In this document: piece by piece, positions 10,622 to 20,486 of the stretch | Layout of the letters: every line of letters starts with the position of its first letter | How positions within the stretch are numbered: position 1 is the stretch's first letter | Assembly: GCF_004349065.1 (NCBI RefSeq) | Contig: NZ_SMKZ01000031.1 | Coordinates: 1 to 64,000 of the forward strand | DNA length: 64,000 nt | Origin: Jiangella asiatica | GTDB taxonomy: Bacteria; Actinomycetota; Actinomycetes; Jiangellales; Jiangellaceae | Reading direction: 5' to 3' | Notes under the pieces: model-generated | The model's input: the letters and a program-made list of their open reading frames with translations, nothing else | What the model was told of the DNA's origin: nothing | Databases searched by the model: none | Position numbers and translations under genes: made by a program

Positions 10622-11425
10622 CTAAGAGATCCTCTCCGCGGATGCGTCGGGTCGTGCCTGGTGCGCTTGCGGTGGCTGGTGAGCTTGCGGTGCCGGGTGG
10701 ACGGCGTCGCCCGCGGGACCGCCCCACGGTATGTGGGTGGTGCAGACGCCCTCGCCGTGCGCGATCGTGGCGATGCGCTGGACGTGGGTGTCGAGCAACC
10801 GGGCGAAGGCCTCGGTCTCGGCCTCGCACAGCTGCGGGAACTGCTCGGCAACGTGCGCGACCGGGCAGTGGTGCTGGCACAGCTGCTCACCGGTGACCGG
10901 CGAGGCCACGGCCGAGGCGGCGTAACCGTCGGCGCTCAGCGCGTCGGCCAGGGCAGTGGCCCTGTCCTCCGGCTTCGCCGCTTCGATGATAGGCCGGTAG
11001 CGCTCCTCGAGGTCGGCGATCCGCCGACGAGCGAACTCGGCGACGAGGTCCTCGCCTCCAGTCTCGGCCAGGAACCGCAGCGCGCCGACGGCGAGGTCGT
11101 CGTAGGCCTGCTCGAACGCGTCCCTACCGGCCGCGGTCAGGACGAACACCTTGGCCGGGCGGCCGCGACCGCGCTGGCCGTAGACTCGCTCCTCGCGGGC
11201 CTCCAGCATGCCCTCGGCCAGCAGCGTGTCCAGGTGCCGCCGCACCGCCGCCGGGGTCAGCCCGAGGCGCTCACCGAGGGCGGCCGCCGTCGACGGGCCG
11301 TTCTCGAGGATGGACCGGGCCACCCGCTCGCGGGTGCGGGCGTGCGCGTCGTGAACGCGGGCGTGTGCGTCCTGACCACCGGGGAAGGGCCCCGTGGTTG
11401 CTGCCGCGTCACGCACCTTTTTCAC
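10622..11425 (-). CDS. sufR: SufR-type Fe-S-sensing regulator of the suf operon
   Basis: 267-residue winged-helix regulator. The N-terminal HTH is around residues 35-75 ([20 protein letters not shown]). Four cysteines lie in the C-terminal half: C183, C187 and C200 ([18 protein letters not shown]) and C228, suited to bind a [4Fe-4S] or [2Fe-2S] cluster. SufR homologues repress suf when the cluster is intact and release DNA when iron or redox stress destroys it. It is the first gene of the leftward suf operon, 2 nt before sufB, and therefore autoregulated if it acts as in mycobacteria. The proline/alanine-rich tail after residue 235 is not conserved. Confidence 0.92.
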
Positions 11426-11484
11426 AACACCATCGTGCTCTTTTTCCGGGCTCGACTCAACCTCCTGTCCGTGCGATGCGTCAC

Positions 11485-11503
11485 GCAGGACAGGCTTACC
11501 TCA
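11485..11503. promoter_or_regulatory. Candidate IdeR/DmdR-like iron box upstream of sufR
   Basis: The 19-mer gcaggacaggcttacctca matches the IdeR/DtxR consensus TWAGGTWAGSCTWACCTWA at 14 of 19 positions, with the right half nearly perfect (AGGCTTACCT). It lies about 60 bp upstream of the sufR start, where an iron repressor could govern the suf promoter. The left half is weak, so this is a candidate only. Confidence 0.35.
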
Positions 11504-11585
11504 CCGGAAGGGCGCAGGCGGCGGGCCCGACAGCGGGTAGCCGAGCCCCCACTGGGTAGTCGTGAAGACGGAAGGTGGTGCGCCG

Positions 11586-12260
11586 ATGGAAGCGCTCGTG
11601 GTCCTCCTGTTCGCGGCGCTGGCCGGCGCCGTCGTCGTCGGAGTGCGCATCTCCCAGTACACCGCGCGGGGGCGCGGCGCAGCGTTGCACGAGGCCGCCC
11701 GCGCCCACGGCTGGCGAGTCACCGCCGACGGCGGCAGCCGGACACTGCGCTGGAGCGGTCCGCCGTTCCGCCCCGGCAGCGGTGCCGCACGCACCGTCGT
11801 CAGCGGGGAGCATCGCGGCCGGGAGTTCGTCGCCTTCGAGTACGTCGACGAGGCCAAGCCCACGCCCCACGCCAAGACCGCGATCCCGCACCGGTTCATG
11901 GTGGTCACGATGACACTGCCGGCCGCGGTGCCGGAGCTGTCGGTCATCCGCCGCGACCCGGTCGAGTCCGTGCTCACGCGGGCGCTGGACGTGCCGATGC
12001 TCGACGTCGGCGACGACGAGTTCAGCGCGCGGTCCGCGGTCACCAGCACGGACCCGCTGTTCGCGACGACGGTCCTACAGCCGCTCGTCGTCGATCACCT
12101 CAAACGGCAGCCGCGGTGGAACTGGCGGTTCGACGGGGCCACGATGCTCGCCTGGGACAAGGGCCGGCTCGAACCGGACCGGCTGACCGCCCGCCTCACC
12201 GCGATGGCCGAACTGCTCGACCGTGTCCCCGCCGAGGCCTGGCGCCATACCGCGTCGTGA
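11586..12260 (+). CDS. Membrane-anchored protein of unknown function
   Basis: 224-residue protein with one N-terminal transmembrane segment (residues 2-22, LVVLLFAALAGAVVVGV) and a soluble remainder. The soluble part has features seen in DUF3137-like actinobacterial proteins: an early WSGPPFRPG segment, RGREFVAFEY in the middle and WNWRFDGATMLAW near the end. ATG at 11586 follows GGAAGGTGG; the frame is open to 11562 but without an equally good ribosome site. It is divergent from sufR and sits just before a small stress-type membrane gene. No enzymatic motif is visible, so function is unknown. Confidence 0.7.
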   Translation: MEALVVLLFAALAGAVVVGVRISQYTARGRGAALHEAARAHGWRVTADGGSRTLRWSGPPFRPGSGAARTVVSGEHRGREFVAFEYVDEAKPTPHAKTAIPHRFMVVTMTLPAAVPELSVIRRDPVESVLTRALDVPMLDVGDDEFSARSAVTSTDPLFATTVLQPLVVDHLKRQPRWNWRFDGATMLAWDKGRLEPDRLTARLTAMAELLDRVPAEAWRHTAS

Positions 12261-12264
12261 GCCT

Positions 12265-12290
12265 GTTTGGTGAATATCCGCCCCGGGTAC
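12265..12290 (+). promoter_or_regulatory. Sigma-B-like promoter of DUF6458 gene 1
   Basis: GTTT at 12265-12268 and GGGTAC at 12285-12290, spaced 16 bp, match the actinobacterial sigma-B/sigma-F consensus (GTTT, 14-16 bp, GGGTAY). The predicted start point is only a few bases before ATG 12300, implying a leaderless or nearly leaderless mRNA. The same elements precede the paralogue at 18.4 kb. Confidence 0.6.
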
Positions 12291-12299
12291 GGACCCGGC

Positions 12300-12515
12300 A
12301 TGACGCTGGGTCGCGGCATCTTCCTCATGACGATCGGGCTCATCCTGGCGCTCGCGGTGCGGGACCGGGTGGGCACGTTCGACCTGAGCATGATCGGCTG
12401 GATCCTGACCGGAGTGGGCCTGCTCGTCTTTACCCTGTCGTTCCTGGTCGGACCGGCCCGGACGGCGCACGAACCCGACGTCGTCGACGAGCCGGACGAC
12501 GTCGACGAGGTCTGA
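12300..12515 (+). CDS. Small membrane protein, DUF6458 type (paralogue 1)
   Basis: 71-residue protein with two transmembrane segments (about residues 4-19 and 28-48) and an acidic C-terminal tail rich in DVVDEPDD. The core pattern GIFLMTIGLILALAVRDRV followed by DLSMIGWILTGVG fits the DUF6458 family of small actinobacterial membrane proteins of unknown role. It is clearly paralogous to the gene at 18405-18629. ATG 12300 is chosen because the sigma-B-like promoter ends at 12290; a GTG 33 nt upstream would lie inside the promoter. A general stress function is inferred from the promoter only. Confidence 0.75.
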   Translation: MTLGRGIFLMTIGLILALAVRDRVGTFDLSMIGWILTGVGLLVFTLSFLVGPARTAHEPDVVDEPDDVDEV

Positions 12516-12553
12516 GCGCGGGCGACGTCGGACCGCGTGGCAGACTCGCCTGA

Positions 12554-13618
12554 GTGAGCGCCCCGCCAGCCGTCGAGATCTCCGCACTGGTGAAGCGCTA
12601 CGGCCCCGCCACCGCCGTCGACGGGCTCACGTTCACCGTCGCGGCCGGCACCATCACCTCGGTCCTGGGCCGCAACGGCGCCGGCAAGACCACCACCATC
12701 GAGACCTGCGAGGGCTTCCGGCGACCCGACGCCGGCACCGTCCGCGTCCTCGGCCTGGACCCGCTGCGCGACGGCGCCCGGCTGCGGCCCCGCGTCGGCG
12801 TGATGCTGCAGGAGGGCACCGGTTTCTACCCGGGAGCCCGGGCCGCCGAGCTGCTCACGCACCTGGCCCGCCTGCACGCGCACCCGCTCGACGTCGGCCC
12901 CCTGGTCGACCGGCTCGGCCTGGCCGGCTCCGGCCCGACCCCGCTGCGTCGCCTCTCCGGCGGCGAGCGGCAACGGGTCGCGCTGGCCGCAGCCCTGGTC
13001 GGCCGGCCCGAGCTGGTGTTCCTCGACGAGCCGACGGCCGGCCTGGACCCACAGGCCCGGCGCGACACTTGGGACCTGCTGACCGAGCTGCGCGCCGACG
13101 GCGTCACGGTCGTGCTGACCACCCACCTCATCGACGAGGCCGAGCGGCTCTCGGACCACGTCGTCATCATCGACGCCGGCCGGCTGCTGGCCGAGGGCAG
13201 CCCGCAGGAACTCACCGCCGGCGCCGCCGATGACATCATCCGGTTCGGCGGCCCGCCCCGGCTCGACCTGGCCTCGCTGCGGGCGGCCCTGCCGGCCGCC
13301 GCCCAGGTCCACGAGGTCGCGCCGGGCACGTATGAGGTGGCGGCCGTGGTCGACCCTCGGCTGCTGGCCACGCTGACCTCCTGGTGTGCCGCGAACGACA
13401 TCCTGGCCGAAGGGCTACAGGTCGGCCACCGGACGCTCGAGGACGTCTTCCTCGAGCTGACCGGCCGGGTCGAGGGCTCCGGATCGGGGCCGGCGCGGGG
13501 GCCGGGGCGGCCGGCGCGGGAATCTGGGCCGGCGGACGGCTGGCCGGGTCGAGGGGAACGACCGGCGGACGGCTGGCCGGCCGACGGGGCGGCCGGCGGG
13601 ACGGGGCCGCGGTCATGA
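12554..13618 (+). CDS. ABC-2 type transporter ATP-binding subunit
   Basis: 354-residue ATPase of the DrrA/CcmA-like export branch. Walker A is GRNGAGKTT near residues 39-47, the signature is LSGGERQR near residue 136, and Walker B is LVFLDEPTAGLDP. Residues 210-305 form the usual C-terminal domain ending TLEDVFLELTGR. The last 45 residues are an unusual low-complexity Gly/Pro/Asp/Trp tail with an 11-residue direct repeat (PADGWPG). The stop overlaps the ATG of the permease. Position near sufR and ctaA is typical of actinobacteria; the substrate is unknown. Confidence 0.92.
   Translation: MSAPPAVEISALVKRYGPATAVDGLTFTVAAGTITSVLGRNGAGKTTTIETCEGFRRPDAGTVRVLGLDPLRDGARLRPRVGVMLQEGTGFYPGARAAELLTHLARLHAHPLDVGPLVDRLGLAGSGPTPLRRLSGGERQRVALAAALVGRPELVFLDEPTAGLDPQARRDTWDLLTELRADGVTVVLTTHLIDEAERLSDHVVIIDAGRLLAEGSPQELTAGAADDIIRFGGPPRLDLASLRAALPAAAQVHEVAPGTYEVAAVVDPRLLATLTSWCAANDILAEGLQVGHRTLEDVFLELTGRVEGSGSGPARGPGRPARESGPADGWPGRGERPADGWPADGAAGGTGPRS
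13529..13580 (+). repeat. 19-bp direct repeat in the ABC ATPase tail
   Basis: ccggcggacggctggccgg occurs at 13529-13547 and again at 13562-13580. The 33-bp period keeps the frame, so it encodes two PADGWP units. It probably arose by slippage and expanded the C-terminal tail of the ATPase. Confidence 0.8.
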
Positions 13619-14373
13619 CCTTCTCCCCCGCGCCCGGAGCGGCGCCGGTCGGCCGCATGCTGCTCGCCCAGTCCGTCTTCGAGACCCGCCTGCTGCTGCG
13701 CAACGGCGAGCAGCTGCTGCTGACAGCGGTCATCCCGGTGGTCCTGCTCTGGCTGCTCACCGCCGCGCCGGTCTTCGACACCGGCCGCTACGAGCGGGTC
13801 GAGTTCCTCGTCCCCGGCATCCTGGCGCTGTGCGTGATGTCGACCGCCTTCACGTCACTGGCGATCGCGACCGGGTACGAACGCCGGTACGGCGCGCTGA
13901 AACGGCTGGCCGCGTCGCCGATTCCGCGTTGGACGCTGCTGCTGGCGAAGGCGCTGACCGTGCTCGTGGTCGAGGCGGTGCAGGTGGCGCTGGTGTGCGG
14001 GCTGGGCCTGGCGCTGGGCTGGGAGCCGTCGGGGTCGCCGCTGTCGGTGGCGGCGTTACTGCTGGCCGGGACGCTGGCGTTCGCCGGTCTGGGCCTGCTC
14101 ATGGCCGGGACCCTGCGCGCCGAGGCGACGCTGGCCGCGGCCAACCTCCTGTACCTGCTGCTCCTGGTGCTCGGCGGTGTGGTCATTCCGCTCGACGGGT
14201 TTCCGGACGGGCTCCGGTCGGTCCTGGGGCTGACCCCGACCGGGGCGCTGGCGTCGAGCCTGCGCTCGGTCCTCGCCGACGGCGACGGCCTGCCGTTCGG
14301 CGCCGTGGCCGTCCTGACCGCCTGGGCCGTGGCCGGTCTGGCCGCCGCCGCCCGCTGGTTCCGCTGGGAGTGA
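13615..14373 (+). CDS. ABC-2 type transporter permease
   Basis: 252-residue integral membrane protein with about six transmembrane segments, the partner of the ATPase with which it overlaps by 4 nt (ATGA). It shows the ABC-2 core: FLVPGILALCVMSTAFTSLA near residues 60-80, RRYGALKRLAASP in the next cytoplasmic loop, and a conserved LGGVVIPLDGFP segment near residue 190. This exporter pair next to ctaA is frequent in actinobacteria and is sometimes suspected of a role in heme or respiratory biogenesis, but no substrate is established. Confidence 0.9.
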   Translation: MTFSPAPGAAPVGRMLLAQSVFETRLLLRNGEQLLLTAVIPVVLLWLLTAAPVFDTGRYERVEFLVPGILALCVMSTAFTSLAIATGYERRYGALKRLAASPIPRWTLLLAKALTVLVVEAVQVALVCGLGLALGWEPSGSPLSVAALLLAGTLAFAGLGLLMAGTLRAEATLAAANLLYLLLLVLGGVVIPLDGFPDGLRSVLGLTPTGALASSLRSVLADGDGLPFGAVAVLTAWAVAGLAAAARWFRWE

Positions 14374-14528
14374 GCTCACGAGGCCGCACGTCCGGCTAGC
14401 GGTGGCCGTGCACGCCGAACGGGTCACACCGACGACAACACACCTGCCACGCATGTGCCCCACTCCGAACAGTTCCCTGTCCCGCTGGTCCGGGCGCAGC
14501 GGGTGCGTCCGCCTGCTTGGGCCGAGCG

Positions 14529-16028
14529 TCAGTCCCGGATGAGGAACGGGTCGAGCAGGTCTGGGACTGCCTCGGCGGCGACGTCCAGGATTTCGTGCTC
14601 GTCGGCGTCGATGATGGAGTAGCGACGCGCGCCGGCCGCTGTGGTCGCCGTCACGGTTATCAGCCCGGCGCGCCGCTGGAAGACCGACTGGCTGATCCGC
14701 CAGCCGATGATGCCCTGGCGCTGGAGGAACACCGTCGCCCGCCGGACACTCCCCTGCCGCGCCACGAGGTAGTGCGCGTCGAGGCGATGCCCGAGCGCAC
14801 GGTAGGCGTCGACGGCGGCGGCGACGGCCCCCGCGCAGGTCAGCGCGGCGACGATGGAGAAGACGGCGACCCAGAACCCAGGCAGCGGCGTAGCGGCCGC
14901 GAGCAGCACCACGATGGCGACAAGCACGATGTCGGCGACAACGGCCCACCGCAGCCGCCGGACTCGGGCGGACCTCGGATGCGGGCGCAGTGACGGTTCG
15001 GCGTCGACGCCTGCGACCTGCGCCGTGATCCGGGCGGCCAGCGGCCGCGGCGCCGCGGGCAGCAGCGTGGAGAGATCACTGGTGGGGTCGTTCTTGAGCC
15101 CGGTGGTGACGACGTCGACGCGTGCGGCGCCCGCGCTCCGGACGCCGAGCGGCTCGACGATCTGGACGCCCCGGATGCGCTGTTCCTCCAGGCTCACCGA
15201 CCGCGTCGTGAGCAGGCCGCGCCGGACGCGCAGCGTGCCGCCCGGCTCGCGTTCGAGGCGATAATTCCACCACCCCTCGACGTACACGGCCAGCGTGCCG
15301 ACGACGCCGGCGGTCACGAAGACGCCGAGCGCCAGCCCCAGCGTCGACCATGCGCCGATGTCTTCGGCGATGTCCATGACCACCTCGACCGGCAGGCCGC
15401 CGCGCCCGAACCAGTCCAGCACCTGAAACATCGCGCCGACCGCGAAGGCCGCCAGCGCGAAGGTCCAGAACGACAGCGGCGCGTACCGAATCCAGAACGG
15501 GTCCCAGGTGGCCAGCGTGCTGCCGTCGGGATCGTCCGCCCGCCGTGCGCGGTCGAGCAGGTCCGCGCGTAGGCGCTCGCCCGCGGCCCGGCCGACCGGG
15601 TCGAGCACGATGGTCTGCTCGGTCGGCGAGGAGCCGCCGCCGCTGCGCCCGTCGCCGGTGCCGATGTTCACCTTGACCAGCCCGAACACCCGCAGCACCG
15701 GATTCGCGCTGAGGTCGACGGTCCGGATGCGTTCGCGCGCCAGCGACCGCCGGGTCGTCATCACGACACCCTTGCGCAGCTCCATCAGGTGGTCGGTGAC
15801 CCGGTAGCGGGTGTGCCGCCAGCGCAGGTAGTCGAGCAGGACGGCCCCGGCGACCAGCAGCAGCATCCCCGGCAGCACCCACGCCAGCGCGACTCCGTCC
15901 GACGTCGCCGAGCCGATGCCCACCGCGGTGGGCACCCCGGCCCCGACGGCGACGCCGGCCACCACGATGGCCGTGACCTTGAGCGTGTCGCGGTGCAGCG
16001 ACTGCCAGGATCCGTCGTCCTCACTCAC
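14529..16028 (-). CDS. Bacterial PH-domain (bPH2) membrane protein, YdbT-like
   Basis: 499-residue membrane protein with several hydrophobic pairs separating bPH2-type (DUF304) modules. The recurring pattern of TRYRVTDHLMELRKGVV, later LRVRRGLLTTRSVSLEEQRI, and AHYLVARQGSVRRATVFLQR shows three modules, as in Bacillus YdbT. The GTG start overlaps the stop of the smaller PH-domain gene (GTGA), forming the common YdbS-YdbT pair. In Bacillus these help resist certain antimicrobial peptides; the role here is inferred only. It converges on the ABC permease gene. Confidence 0.87.
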   Translation of the reverse strand: MSEDDGSWQSLHRDTLKVTAIVVAGVAVGAGVPTAVGIGSATSDGVALAWVLPGMLLLVAGAVLLDYLRWRHTRYRVTDHLMELRKGVVMTTRRSLARERIRTVDLSANPVLRVFGLVKVNIGTGDGRSGGGSSPTEQTIVLDPVGRAAGERLRADLLDRARRADDPDGSTLATWDPFWIRYAPLSFWTFALAAFAVGAMFQVLDWFGRGGLPVEVVMDIAEDIGAWSTLGLALGVFVTAGVVGTLAVYVEGWWNYRLEREPGGTLRVRRGLLTTRSVSLEEQRIRGVQIVEPLGVRSAGAARVDVVTTGLKNDPTSDLSTLLPAAPRPLAARITAQVAGVDAEPSLRPHPRSARVRRLRWAVVADIVLVAIVVLLAAATPLPGFWVAVFSIVAALTCAGAVAAAVDAYRALGHRLDAHYLVARQGSVRRATVFLQRQGIIGWRISQSVFQRRAGLITVTATTAAGARRYSIIDADEHEILDVAAEAVPDLLDPFLIRD

Positions 16029-16522
16029 GTGGCGTCGCCTGGCGTCTCATGGGTGATCCGGGTGAGCTCCTCGGACAGGTCGGCGGCCCGCTCGTGGTCG
16101 AGGCCCTCGATCTTGACCGCCCCGGCCGAGGACGCCGTGGTCACCGTCACCGTCGACAGCCCGAACGCTCGCTGCAGCGGCCCGCGCGTGGTGTCGACCG
16201 TCTGGATGCGCGACATCGGCGCCACCCGCCAGGTCTGCCACAGCACGCCGCCGCGGGCGTAGACCGCACGGTCGGTGACCTCCCACCGGTGCAGGCGGTA
16301 CCACCACGGCGGCAACGCGACGACGGCGAGCACGGTGGCGGCGAGGACCACGGCGGCAGGCACGAGCAGCCAGGTCCGGGCCGGCTCGATCAGCACGCCG
16401 AGCACCACCAGCGGAAGGGCCGGGACCGCGCCGGAGACGGCCAGTTGGGCCCTCCACCACGCCCGTGCCCGCCGGTCGAGCCAGTGCCGAGGCGGACGCA
16501 GCCGCGTTCGGCCCTCCGTCAC
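16025..16522 (-). CDS. Bacterial PH-domain (bPH2) membrane protein, YdbS-like
   Basis: 165-residue protein with two adjacent transmembrane segments (about residues 27-45 and 50-70) followed by one bPH2 module (RWEVTDRAVYARGGVLWQTW, then SRIQTVDTTRGPLQRAFGL). The GTG start at 16522 is supported by a strong AGGAGGAG 5 nt away; the frame is open further upstream without similarity. It is translationally coupled to the larger three-module PH protein that follows. Confidence 0.87.
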   Translation of the reverse strand: MTEGRTRLRPPRHWLDRRARAWWRAQLAVSGAVPALPLVVLGVLIEPARTWLLVPAAVVLAATVLAVVALPPWWYRLHRWEVTDRAVYARGGVLWQTWRVAPMSRIQTVDTTRGPLQRAFGLSTVTVTTASSAGAVKIEGLDHERAADLSEELTRITHETPGDAT

Positions 16523-17341
16523 GTGGTCTCCTCCTGGTCGGCTGCTCGCACCGCTGGCGGACGCTGTGGTCGCATCCGTCGCCGCCTCGGCCGATCGATG
16601 CTGTCGTACCCGGGGTGCGGACGCTGCCCACCACGGCACCCGGGCGCGGTCGTGGCGCGCGGTTCGTGGCGTGCCGCCGCCAGGCGACGCACCTCCCCCC
16701 GCGAGGCGCAAGCTCACGCTATCCGAGAGCCCGGCGGCCCGCGACCTACCTCAGCCATGTCGCCCACGTCGCCGACGGTTCGTCGCGTGTAGCGGCAGCC
16801 GCAACGCGACGGCATCCCGACATCACGCCTGGAGGCCGACTCGCGGCCCTCACCGACGATCAGTCCGCTGTCCTGACCCGCCGTCGGTTGACGGCCGTCG
16901 CCGGCGGTCGGTGCTGGGGCCGGCAGGCGCTGCGCCGGCGCACGCACCTGGGCGGATGCCTGGTCGCGAGCAGGTCCCGGCGCCAGCAGACCGAGGACGA
17001 ACACCAGGGCGGCGCACCGCAGCACGATCCAACGCCAACCGCGACGAGCGCCGGAGGCGCCGACGCACGTTGCGCGCGCACCACGGCCGGATCTCGCGCT
17101 GCGGCCACCCGCGCCGTAGCTCCTGCTGGTGTCCAGTCGGTCGATCATGTTACGGACGCTATGCGCGCCGACGTCGGCGCAACAGGTCCGCGCGTTTGCC
17201 CGTTCGCCCGGGCAACTAGCCCGTTTCGGGCTAACGCTTCGTCCGCCCGTACAGGTCGGGCCGGTCGGCAGCCCGGAAGGCGTCGCCTGGCGACGATACC
17301 CCCGCTCAGGCCCTCGACCCGGCGCTCCCTACCATGAGCGG
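16523..17341. other. Long gap between ydbS-like gene and ctaA
   Basis: 819 bp with many overlapping open frames, as expected in DNA of this base composition, but no recognisable domain, RNA or repeat. The only frame with any protein-like character is on the minus strand at 16714-17148 and is listed separately. Just before ctaA, TACCAT at 17330-17335 could be a -10 element placing the start point on the GTG of ctaA, i.e. a leaderless mRNA. Confidence 0.4.
16714..17148 (-). CDS. Doubtful small ORF, possible single-pass membrane protein
   Basis: 144-codon ATG frame with one hydrophobic stretch (about residues 40-56, WIVLRCAALVFVLGLL) preceded by an Arg/Gly-rich N-terminus and followed by low-complexity Ala/Pro sequence. 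That layout could be a signal anchor with a secreted tail. There is no clear ribosome site and no family I recognise, and overlapping frames of similar length exist. It may well be spurious; it is listed because it is the best candidate in an 819-bp gap. Confidence 0.22.
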   Translation of the reverse strand: MIDRLDTSRSYGAGGRSARSGRGARATCVGASGARRGWRWIVLRCAALVFVLGLLAPGPARDQASAQVRAPAQRLPAPAPTAGDGRQPTAGQDSGLIVGEGRESASRRDVGMPSRCGCRYTRRTVGDVGDMAEVGRGPPGSRIA

Positions 17342-18331
17342 GTGACGACGACAGCCCCCCGCACGCCGGCCCCGGCGCCCGCACCCAGCCGGGTCGGCCG
17401 CCTGGTGCGGTGGCTGCCGCTGCCGTCCGAGGCGACCTTGCGGCGGCTCGCGGTGGCTTCGTTGGTCACCCAGGCCGGCATCATCGTGACCGGCGGCGCG
17501 GTCCGTCTCACCGACTCGGGGCTGGGCTGCCCGGACTGGCCGCACTGCACGCAGGGGTCGCTCACAGCCACCCCGGAGATGGGTCTGCACGGCGCCATCG
17601 AGTTCGGCAATCGGCTGCTCACGTTCGTGCTCGGCGCCGTCGCGCTGGCCATGCTCGTCGCGGTCATCCGGACGTTCGACTCCGACCGGCCGCGACGCGA
17701 CCTGCTCGTGCCTGCGGCGTTCCTGCTGGGCTTCATCCCGGCGCAGGCGGTCATCGGCGGCATCACGGTGTGGACCGACCTGAACCCGTGGGTCGTCATG
17801 TTCCACTTCCTGGTGTCCACCGTCCTGGTCGGCGTGGCGACGGTCATGGTGCGCCGGGCGCAGCGGCCGATGGGTGCCGTTCCCGAACGGGTCGGGCAGC
17901 CGTGGCTGCAACGCCTGGGCCTGCTGACGCTCGCCGCGACGGCCGCCGTCATCTATCTCGGGGCGGTGGTCACCGGGAGCGGCCCGCACGCCGGCGACCC
18001 GGACTCCAAGCGGACCGGGCTCGACGTCGCGGTCGTGACACAGGTTCATGCCGACGCGGTGTTGGTGCTGGTCGGCCTCTCGATCGGCCTCTACTTCACC
18101 GCCCGCGCGCTCGGCTCGCCCGGCCGGTCGGCCCGCGCGGCCGCCGTCCTCCTGGTCGTCGAGGCGGCCCAGGGCGTGGTCGGTTTCGTGCAGTACCGGC
18201 TGGAGCTGCCCGAGCTCCTGGTCGGGCTGCACATGCTCGGCGCCGCGCTGATGGTCGTCGCCGCCGTCGACGGGTGGCTGGCGACGCGCTGGCTGCCGTC
18301 GGACCGGAGTGTTCCACAGCCCGCACGCTGA
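17342..18331 (+). CDS. ctaA: Heme A synthase (COX15/CtaA)
   Basis: 329-residue membrane protein with eight hydrophobic segments that oxidises heme O to heme A for aa3-type cytochrome oxidase. It has the paired cysteines in the first outer loop (GLGCPDWPHC) and four heme-ligand histidine regions: GLHGAIEFGNRL, VMFHFLVS, VTQVHADAVL and VGLHMLGAAL. The first 35 residues are Pro/Ala-rich and cytoplasmic. The GTG at 17342 may be leaderless. Its functional partner ctaB (heme O synthase) lies 2.2 kb away on the opposite strand. Confidence 0.94.
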   Translation: MTTTAPRTPAPAPAPSRVGRLVRWLPLPSEATLRRLAVASLVTQAGIIVTGGAVRLTDSGLGCPDWPHCTQGSLTATPEMGLHGAIEFGNRLLTFVLGAVALAMLVAVIRTFDSDRPRRDLLVPAAFLLGFIPAQAVIGGITVWTDLNPWVVMFHFLVSTVLVGVATVMVRRAQRPMGAVPERVGQPWLQRLGLLTLAATAAVIYLGAVVTGSGPHAGDPDSKRTGLDVAVVTQVHADAVLVLVGLSIGLYFTARALGSPGRSARAAAVLLVVEAAQGVVGFVQYRLELPELLVGLHMLGAALMVVAAVDGWLATRWLPSDRSVPQPAR

Positions 18332-18338
18332 CCCGCAC

Positions 18339-18363
18339 GTTTGCCGCACCAGCCGCCGGGTAC
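18339..18363 (+). promoter_or_regulatory. Sigma-B-like promoter of DUF6458 gene 2
   Basis: GTTT at 18339-18342 and GGGTAC at 18358-18363 are spaced 15 bp, again matching the sigma-B/sigma-F consensus. The predicted start point is about 35 bp before ATG 18405, leaving room for the GGGAGG ribosome site at 18389-18394. It starts 8 bp after the ctaA stop, so this gene has its own promoter. Confidence 0.6.
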
Positions 18364-18404
18364 GCACTGGACGCAACCCTGCCGAAGTGGGAGGTGTGTC
18401 CGAT

Positions 18405-18629
18405 ATGAGCATCGGCCTTGGGGTCTTCCTGATGGCGCTGGGCCTGATCCTGGCGCTCGGGGTCCGGGACCGGCTCTCCGACTTCGACCTCAGCGTGATC
18501 GGCTGGGTGCTGACCGGCGTCGGCGCACTGGCGATCATCCTGTCGATGATGATCGCCTCGATGCGCAACCGGGGTCGCACCCGCAGCGCCGAGTACGTGG
18601 AGCGGCGCGACGACATCGACCCGCTCTGA
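18405..18629 (+). CDS. Small membrane protein, DUF6458 type (paralogue 2)
   Basis: 74-residue protein with two transmembrane segments (about residues 2-18 and 27-48) and a charged C-terminus ending RRDDIDPL. It shares the core VFLMALGLILALGVRDRL and DLSVIGWVLTGVG with the paralogue at 12.3 kb. ATG 18405 follows GGGAGG by 10 nt. The role of the family is unknown; the sigma-B-like promoter suggests it is made under stress or in stationary phase. Confidence 0.82.
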   Translation: MSIGLGVFLMALGLILALGVRDRLSDFDLSVIGWVLTGVGALAIILSMMIASMRNRGRTRSAEYVERRDDIDPL

Positions 18630-18647
18630 CCGGCACGGCCGGCCGGC

Positions 18648-19469
18648 TCAGACGAGCTGGCCGGCCTCCAGCCGCCGTACGGCCGCGTCAGACGCCAGTT
18701 CGTCGCGGTCGCCCGGGCGGCCGACGTAGTACAGCAGGCCGTGATAGACGAGAACGGGGTCGTTCACCAGCCGCCCGCACGGCACGAGCACTTGGTCGGG
18801 CAGGTCGCTCGGCTGCCTGACGCCGATGACGATCAGGTTCTGGACGGCCGCGCGAGCCCCGACGGGAATCACGGCGGAAGTCGCCGTGACGCTTTCGATC
18901 TCGGCCCACGGGATGTCGCTGCGTCCGTGACCGGTCTCGACGAGCACGTGCCGCGGCGTGAGGTCGACGGCGTTGTTCGTGCGCTTCGACGACAGCGCGG
19001 CGATGCCGCCGAGCAGCAGCACCAGCCCGGGGACTCCGACGACGACGCCGCCGATCAGGAACCGCGCCTCGCCGCGCGTCACCACGAGCACGAGCATCGC
19101 GACGACAGCGGCCAGCAGCGCCACGCCACCGGCCACCAAGCCGAGGCCGAGCAGGACGGTCCCGGGTCGGACGGCGAAGCGCACCGCCCGCTCCTGGACC
19201 CCGTCGACCTCGACGGTGACCGGCCCCACCACCTGGCGCCGCGGCCGTCGCGGCCGAGCCAGCACGCCGATGGTCCCAACCACGACGGCGACAGCGCCCA
19301 GGCCGGCGGCAACGCGCGGCTCGCTGTCGACGAGCGCGACGCCGCACGCCAGGGCCATCGGAACGACGAGCACGCCGCACAGCACGGTGAGGCGCCAGCC
19401 GCCGAGCGGCGGGCGCCTCCATGCCGACGGCCACGGGAGCGGCGCCGGGCCGCGGTCCTGGTCGACCAC
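18648..19469 (-). CDS. Membrane protein of unknown function
   Basis: 273-residue protein with four hydrophobic segments in two pairs (roughly residues 27-70 and 103-160) and a soluble C-terminal part. The segment after residue 165 (VDLTPRHVLVETGHGRSDIPWAEI in shortened form: LTPRHVLVET...IPWAEIESV) resembles a PH-like/DUF304 module, in which a strand leads into a Trp-containing turn. That similarity is weak and I do not name a family. It starts 39 bp after the MerR gene and is read in the same direction, so they may be cotranscribed. Confidence 0.7.
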   Translation of the reverse strand: MVDQDRGPAPLPWPSAWRRPPLGGWRLTVLCGVLVVPMALACGVALVDSEPRVAAGLGAVAVVVGTIGVLARPRRPRRQVVGPVTVEVDGVQERAVRFAVRPGTVLLGLGLVAGGVALLAAVVAMLVLVVTRGEARFLIGGVVVGVPGLVLLLGGIAALSSKRTNNAVDLTPRHVLVETGHGRSDIPWAEIESVTATSAVIPVGARAAVQNLIVIGVRQPSDLPDQVLVPCGRLVNDPVLVYHGLLYYVGRPGDRDELASDAAVRRLEAGQLV

Positions 19470-19508
19470 CGCCGAATCCTCTCATGCGGTCCGGGCACCG
19501 CGGTCAGA

Positions 19509-20486
19509 TCACCCGGCCGCGCCGGCACCGGCCGAGGCCAGCAGCGCCGCGGCGAACCATTCCATCGTCGCCACACCGCCGGAGCGGACTTGGCCTGTCG
19601 GCCAGCCGTTGATGTCGCTGACGAGCTCCCAGTACCGCTCCACCCGGGTGTCGGAGAACAGCGCGATCCGCTCCCCCAGCTCGCGCCGGAAGCCGGCTCC
19701 GTCGTCGGTACCGCCGGCCGCGGCGAACGACGGTGCGAGCTGATCGACGACGAACCGGCCGTCGGCGGAGTCCGGCTCGACCCCGGCCGACCGCAGGGGC
19801 TGGACCAACTGCGCCACCCGCTCGTAGAGCCCCAGCTCCGCCGTCGACGGTCCGGCCTCGCTCGAACCCGCGCGGGCGCCCGCCTCCGCCATCTGCCGCA
19901 CCCGTGCCCGGTAGCCGGGGTCCTGCACCAACTCGGCCAGCTCCACCCAGGCGGCCACCTGCTCGGGTGTCGGGTCGTCGGGAAGGTCGATCCGGACCGA
20001 GCGCATGCGATCGGCGAAAGCGGGGTCGGTGTGGAGGCCGGCGAAGGTCTCGTCCCAGTAGTCGTCGATGATCTGCTGCCGCTCGGCGGCGGACAGCTTG
20101 GCCAGGCGATTCATCAGGTCCAGCTCCTCGTGGTCGTCGATCCCCGCGGCCGCCACCGCCCGCAGCACCGACCGCCGGGTCCGCAGGAGCCGGATCTGCG
20201 CGTCCAACGCGGCCGCGTGCGCCGCGGCCATCTGCGCCAGCGTCAGGTCGCGGTCCAGGACCCGGCGGACGGTGGCCAGGTCGAGGTCCAGCTCACGCAG
20301 CGTCCGCACCAGGTCGAGCCTGGCCATGGCGACGGTGTCGTACAGGCGGTAACCGGCCGGGGACCGGTCGGTCGGCGGCACCAGGCCGATGTCGGCGTAG
20401 TACCTGATCGTCTTCACCGGGAGTCCGGTGCGCCGGGCCAGGTCGCCGATCGTCAGCAGGGTGCCGTGGTCGTTCACGGAAGCCAC
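19509..20486 (-). CDS. MerR-family transcriptional regulator with long C-terminal domain
   Basis: 325-residue protein. Residues 10-80 are a MerR HTH (LTIGDLARRTGLPVKTIRYY, then GYRLYDTVAMARLDLVRTLR), followed by the dimer helix. The remaining 220 residues form a helical domain resembling TipAS-like or MerR C-terminal sensor domains, without metal-binding cysteines. The GTG at 20486 has GGAGG 7 nt upstream. It lies 58 bp after ctaB in the same direction. The effector cannot be told; a small organic ligand is more likely than a metal. Confidence 0.88.
   Translation of the reverse strand: MASVNDHGTLLTIGDLARRTGLPVKTIRYYADIGLVPPTDRSPAGYRLYDTVAMARLDLVRTLRELDLDLATVRRVLDRDLTLAQMAAAHAAALDAQIRLLRTRRSVLRAVAAAGIDDHEELDLMNRLAKLSAAERQQIIDDYWDETFAGLHTDPAFADRMRSVRIDLPDDPTPEQVAAWVELAELVQDPGYRARVRQMAEAGARAGSSEAGPSTAELGLYERVAQLVQPLRSAGVEPDSADGRFVVDQLAPSFAAAGGTDDGAGFRRELGERIALFSDTRVERYWELVSDINGWPTGQVRSGGVATMEWFAAALLASAGAGAAG

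Follow-up and report, generated by a model that had tools for sequence, protein, structure and literature searches.

Two DUF6458 genes behind candidate SigB/SigF-type promoters

The window, i.e., the whole 64-kb stretch of Jiangella DNA that was analysed, contains two genes for small proteins of the DUF6458 family (PF20059), each preceded by a putative SigB/SigF-type promoter (Table 1). Both products exceed the Pfam gathering cut-off of 27 bits, in line with the preliminary description, which had placed two-TM proteins of 71–74 residues behind both sites. The two proteins, DUF6458-I and DUF6458-II, share 51% identity, and no further copy was found in the genome. Members of this family comprise two hydrophobic helices, a short polar turn and a charged tail, with invariant glycines at alignment columns G4, G13, G33 and G40. 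An AlphaFold2 model of DUF6458-I, of moderate confidence (pLDDT 75.5; pTM 0.40), placed the helices at residues 3–23 and 29–57, and the positive-inside rule implies that both termini should be cytoplasmic. Relatives with a solved structure were not convincing (best E-value of 0.12 by sequence, none below 1 by fold), as would be expected of a helical hairpin. In the literature searched, we found no paper on the function or regulation of DUF6458/PF20059.

Table 1 Features of the DUF6458 loci in the window.
Feature	Coordinates	Strand	Remarks
SigB/SigF-type promoter of DUF6458-II (putative)	12265..12290	+	-35 GTTTGG, -10 GGGTAC; GTTT-N16-GGGTAC; kept in Jiangellales type II genes
DUF6458-II, 71 aa	12300..12515	+	PF20059, 60.1 bits; ATG 9 nt past the -10 box; predicted leaderless mRNA
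ABC transporter ATPase	12554..13618	+	PF00005; 38 nt downstream of DUF6458-II, co-oriented
SigB/SigF-type promoter of DUF6458-I (putative)	18339..18363	+	-35 GTTTGC, -10 GGGTAC; GTTT-N15-GGGTAC; kept in 17/17 leadered Jiangellales genes
GGGAGG, likely ribosome-binding site of DUF6458-I	18389..18394	+	In the predicted leader; similar GGAGG in relatives
DUF6458-I, 74 aa	18405..18629	+	PF20059, 61.2 bits; predicted two-helix membrane hairpin with charged C-terminal tail

Both motifs were recovered at the positions previously assigned to them. They combine a -35 element (GTTT/GNNT) with a -10 element (GGGTA(C/T)) at a distance of 12–15 nt between hexamers, as is characteristic of SigB/SigF-type promoters. 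The two sites do not occupy the same position relative to the paralogous genes, as had been claimed: the interval between the last base of GGGTAC and the ATG measures 9 nt for DUF6458-II (start at 12300) and 41 nt for DUF6458-I (start at 18405), a difference that is paralogue-specific and conserved in relatives. Neither a plain sigma-70 promoter nor an intrinsic terminator was found in the region 11400–19600, an Rfam search of the window returned no match, and no plasmids were found.

Might both matches reflect chance resemblance in a high-GC genome? Across the 7.03-Mb genome, GTTT-N15/16-GGGTAC occurred six times as compared to five times for a control pattern read backwards. The strict pattern is thus not over-represented and is weak on its own at genome scale; location and conservation carry the argument. 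Two of these six matches, however, are the sites adjoining the only two DUF6458 genes. Given the genome-wide count, 8.5e-5 matches would be expected in two chosen 100-nt upstream stretches, so the probability of finding one match at each of the two genes, P(≥2), is ~4e-9. Within the window, the more permissive GTTT-N14-17-GGGTA likewise returned two occurrences, namely these two sites, against a mean of 0.06 in shuffled sequences (0/100 shuffles reached two). Together with the conservation of the motif in homologues—upstream of all 25 Jiangellales genes despite diverged spacers, and enriched phylum-wide (see below)—these values agree with the earlier judgement that chance is an unlikely cause. 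The enrichment upstream of DUF6458 homologues rules out chance resemblance, to which we accord practically no probability.

Genomic neighbourhood

The block around the DUF6458 genes comprises sufB/sufD, a SufR-like regulator, an ABC exporter, COX15/CtaA (PF02628) and bacterial PH-domain proteins, with the suf gene names being putative assignments from sequence reading and gene order. Genes for two bacterial PH-domain (bPH_2) proteins occupy 14529–16717 of the minus strand, between the ABC exporter and COX15/CtaA. Linkage of suf, ABC, ctaA and ctaB genes was rejected as a functional clue outside the order, with no CtaA, CtaB or Suf in 97 other loci (1–1.5 kb on each side). In Jiangella and one MAG, DUF6458-II and its promoter are situated between the gene for a 232-aa protein and the ABC ATPase gene; they are missing from this place in Phytoactinopolyspora (loci L109–L112 vs L113–L117).

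DUF6458-II and the co-oriented ABC ATPase gene stand in this order in four Jiangella loci and the MAG, and transcripts from the DUF6458-II promoter may extend into the transporter gene. The short intergenic distance would also be compatible with a promoter at 12265 that mainly serves the transporter, with DUF6458-II as a passenger. However, the Phytoactinopolyspora ABC gene, which lacks an adjacent DUF6458-II, had no such motif within 330 nt, indicating that the promoter goes with DUF6458 rather than with the transporter. Moreover, DUF6458-I has its promoter without having an operon partner. We therefore deem a primary role in transporter expression highly improbable.

Conservation within Jiangellales

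To the order Jiangellales, our sample contributed 22 genomes, 17 of which carried DUF6458, with 25 genes in total. GTTT-N14..16-GGGTA was present upstream of every one of these 25 genes. Pairwise identity reached 0.98–1.00 in the -35 and -10 boxes, as opposed to 0.35–0.58 in the spacer and flanks; near-invariant boxes amid diverged surroundings constitute a classical promoter footprint. The same loci were present in Jiangella and Phytoactinopolyspora relatives.

Inspecting the distance between motif and start codon separated two types of gene. In type I (MSIGLGVF and relatives), the -10 box lies 35–64 nt before the start and is accompanied by a GGAGG-type ribosome-binding site. In type II (MTLGRGIF), GGGTA precedes the ATG by 10–11 nt in 8/8 Jiangella genes, including DUF6458-II, from which we predict that the Jiangella type II mRNA should be leaderless. 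For the lone type II gene found outside Jiangella, that of the MAG, this distance is 32 nt. The 75 motif-bearing loci showed a bimodal distribution, with distances of either 10–11 nt (11 loci) or 32–83 nt and none between 12 and 31 nt. Further Jiangella genes with the motif, encoding WhiB, an SDR, a DUF5709-like protein and a 163-aa membrane protein, have GGGTA 7–11 nt from the start codon. This spacing suggests a preference for leaderless mRNAs in the putative Jiangella motif regulon.

Conservation across Actinomycetota

DUF6458 was detected in 79 of 396 sampled Actinomycetota genomes, that is, in about a fifth. Scanning the regions upstream of other DUF6458 genes, a check proposed in the preliminary description, revealed the motif to be enriched beyond Jiangellales. 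In Streptomyces, GGGTA was located at 25–100 nt in 36/36 cases (background 2.2%) and the full GNNT-N14-16-GGGTA in 30/36 (background 0.2%). Among SigBFG-positive genes outside Jiangellales and Streptomyces, 20 of 53 had GNNT-N14-16-GGGTA within 110 nt, as compared to 0.26% of background windows; the link between motif and DUF6458 is therefore not universal. Where genomes had no SigBFG sigma factor, the motif was found in 0/8 DUF6458 loci (two families; Fisher p 0.019, not corrected for phylogeny). SigBFG sigma factors were present in 69/79 genomes with DUF6458 vs 164/317 of the others (Fisher 1.7e-9, likewise without phylogeny correction). The lineages devoid of SigBFG keep DUF6458 without a SigB-type promoter (eight loci).

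To guard against circularity, we scored the upstream regions with a matrix derived only from 24 mapped SigB-family promoters of S. coelicolor (PMC8346170, Table 2). A region counted as positive if its score passed the 99% quantile of its controls, for which 4,646 windows were drawn from the same loci. This threshold was exceeded by 25/25 Jiangellales genes and 22/46 genes from other classes, but by 0/8 in genomes lacking SigBFG. Only 5/36 Streptomyces genes surpassed it, with a (G/A)CATGG variant of the -35 element scoring poorly. This variant, combined with a 13-nt spacer and GGGTAC, is shared by about half of the DUF6458 promoters in Streptomyces (within loci L077, L084–L091 and L139–L167), which depart from the S. 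coelicolor type in reading GCATGG/ACATGG-N13-GGGTAC. By sequence, they possibly form a sub-class of SigB-type promoter.

The sites resemble promoters of characterised systems. S. coelicolor possesses nine cross-recognising SigB homologues acting on promoters of the GNNT-N14-16-GGGTAC/T type (PMC8346170), and Jiangella type I, GTTTGC-N13-GGGTAC, is one spacer base apart from SCO3557p, GTTTGC-N14-GGGTAC (PMC8346170, Table 2). The SigF consensus of M. smegmatis, GTTT-N14-19-GGGTA (PMC4694148), also given as GGWWT-N16-17-GGGTAY, has the same two boxes and spacing as the Jiangella sites, while the target genes overlap only in part. M. smegmatis SigF promoters have short leaders, with some located 8–9 nt from the start codon (PMC4694148, PMC7693655).

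Conserved bipartite elements can also be operators, and the motif could in principle be a transcription factor site or another conserved non-promoter element. Several properties render this very doubtful: the half-sites are unrelated, forming neither inverted nor direct repeats; the hexamers are mostly spaced by 13–15 nt and match mapped SigB-family promoters; the distances to start codons are promoter-like, including exactly 10–11 nt in leaderless cases; and the motif is missing before DUF6458 in the sampled genomes that lack the sigma family.

Candidate sigma factors and a predicted regulon

The SigB/SigF/SigG family comprises the general-stress, partner-switching sigma factors of Actinomycetota. 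The Jiangella genome encodes four SigBFG sigma factors that score over the TIGR02980 cut-off, and we infer that one of these candidates drives DUF6458. Directly upstream of the best-scoring SigBFG gene lies an RsbW-like gene (HATPase_c_2, PF13581), whose match of 21.9 bits is below the cut-off of 27.4; with this caveat, the arrangement is that of the mycobacterial usfX/rsbW-sigF operon (PMC7693655). As to autoregulation, the four sigma gene loci had no strict GTTT-type motif, nor a relaxed match shortly upstream. One of the three SigB-like sigma genes (locus L035, G000:C57:31489-35154) is located downstream of a gene for a thiamine-pyrophosphate enzyme, and the promoter motif also precedes a relative of this enzyme gene in a different Jiangella (L240). 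DUF6458 was not matched in the sampled genomes that appear Mycobacteriaceae-like, the family name being a guess, although these encode SigBFG sigma factors.

With respect to further targets, GTTTG-N14/15-GGGTA occurred 107 times in 12 Jiangella genomes vs 15 times for the reversed pattern, and most sites precede recurrent orthologue groups. These encode WhiB (PF02467), Rv2632c-like proteins (PF08962), PEBP, a stress-type SDR, release-factor-like baeRF and small membrane proteins; one hemerythrin and one thiamine-pyrophosphate enzyme are single cases. In several of them, the motif again lies 10–11 nt before the start. The position of the motif before conserved stress-type genes implies that it marks a regulon. 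The SigF regulon of M. smegmatis, too, includes hemerythrins (PMC4694148). In seven loci, the motif precedes a conserved gene whose product, MNTATRVAAAAATGYVLGRRKKLKLAIAVGS..., has no Pfam match; it looks like a further uncharacterised member of the stress regulon.

With four factors over the cut-off, the term 'general stress regulon' might claim too much, and the sites might instead serve a SigB-like factor of a narrower, osmotic or developmental, programme. In keeping with this, the nine S. coelicolor homologues share promoters, and the GTTT-type -35 element is better conserved for SigF/H/N, associated with sporulation (PMC8346170). Yet, the co-marked genes—WhiB, PEBP, a GSP39-like SDR, hemerythrin and Rv2632c-like—resemble a general stress set, and cross-recognition among SigB homologues is broad (PMC8346170), so that a dedicated sigma factor is not needed. 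A narrower programme thus strikes us as rather unlikely, albeit the most credible of the alternatives, and we favour an assignment to the general stress response.

DUF6458 as a probable part of the general stress response

The initial reading of sigma-B-type promoters and membership in the general stress regulon is supported by the conservation data (25/25 in Jiangellales; 36/36 and 30/36 in Streptomyces; 20/53 elsewhere vs 0.26% of background; 0/8 in the absence of SigBFG) and by the co-marked stress-type genes. We consider it highly likely that both sites are genuine SigB/SigF/SigG promoters; the positions of the transcription starts, the acting sigma factor, the stress that induces it and the role of the proteins at the membrane are our inferences. 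Given the same promoter before relatives across much of Actinomycetota, DUF6458 very probably is a SigB/SigF-regulon, i.e., general stress, gene family in this phylum.

In the mechanism we propose, stress would free the sigma factor from an RsbW-type anti-sigma factor, upon which the RNA polymerase holoenzyme would bind GTTT(G) and GGGTA and transcription would start a few bases past the -10 box. The DUF6458-I transcript would begin with a short leader that contains a Shine-Dalgarno sequence, and that of DUF6458-II would be essentially leaderless. The predicted products are small two-helix inner-membrane proteins, which most likely serve the envelope branch of the general stress response. They may oligomerise via their conserved glycines, supporting membrane integrity. 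In our view, stress-induced membrane support would be the most likely role of DUF6458. More speculatively, DUF6458 might be a widely conserved SigB/SigF envelope component in several classes, with the hairpin protecting the membrane or the respiratory chain under stress, and the combination of leaderless and Shine-Dalgarno starts might ensure that one paralogue is still translated if leadered initiation is impaired; we put forward this extended proposal tentatively, as less likely to hold than to fail.

The promoter type itself is already well known. The probable placement of DUF6458 in the general stress response provides a first functional handle on a family of unknown function, and it names a small predicted Jiangella regulon. 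CsbA of Bacillus subtilis is a small membrane protein controlled by SigB. As a short membrane protein under a stress sigma factor, CsbA offers a lead as to how DUF6458 may work, with no relation in sequence being claimed.
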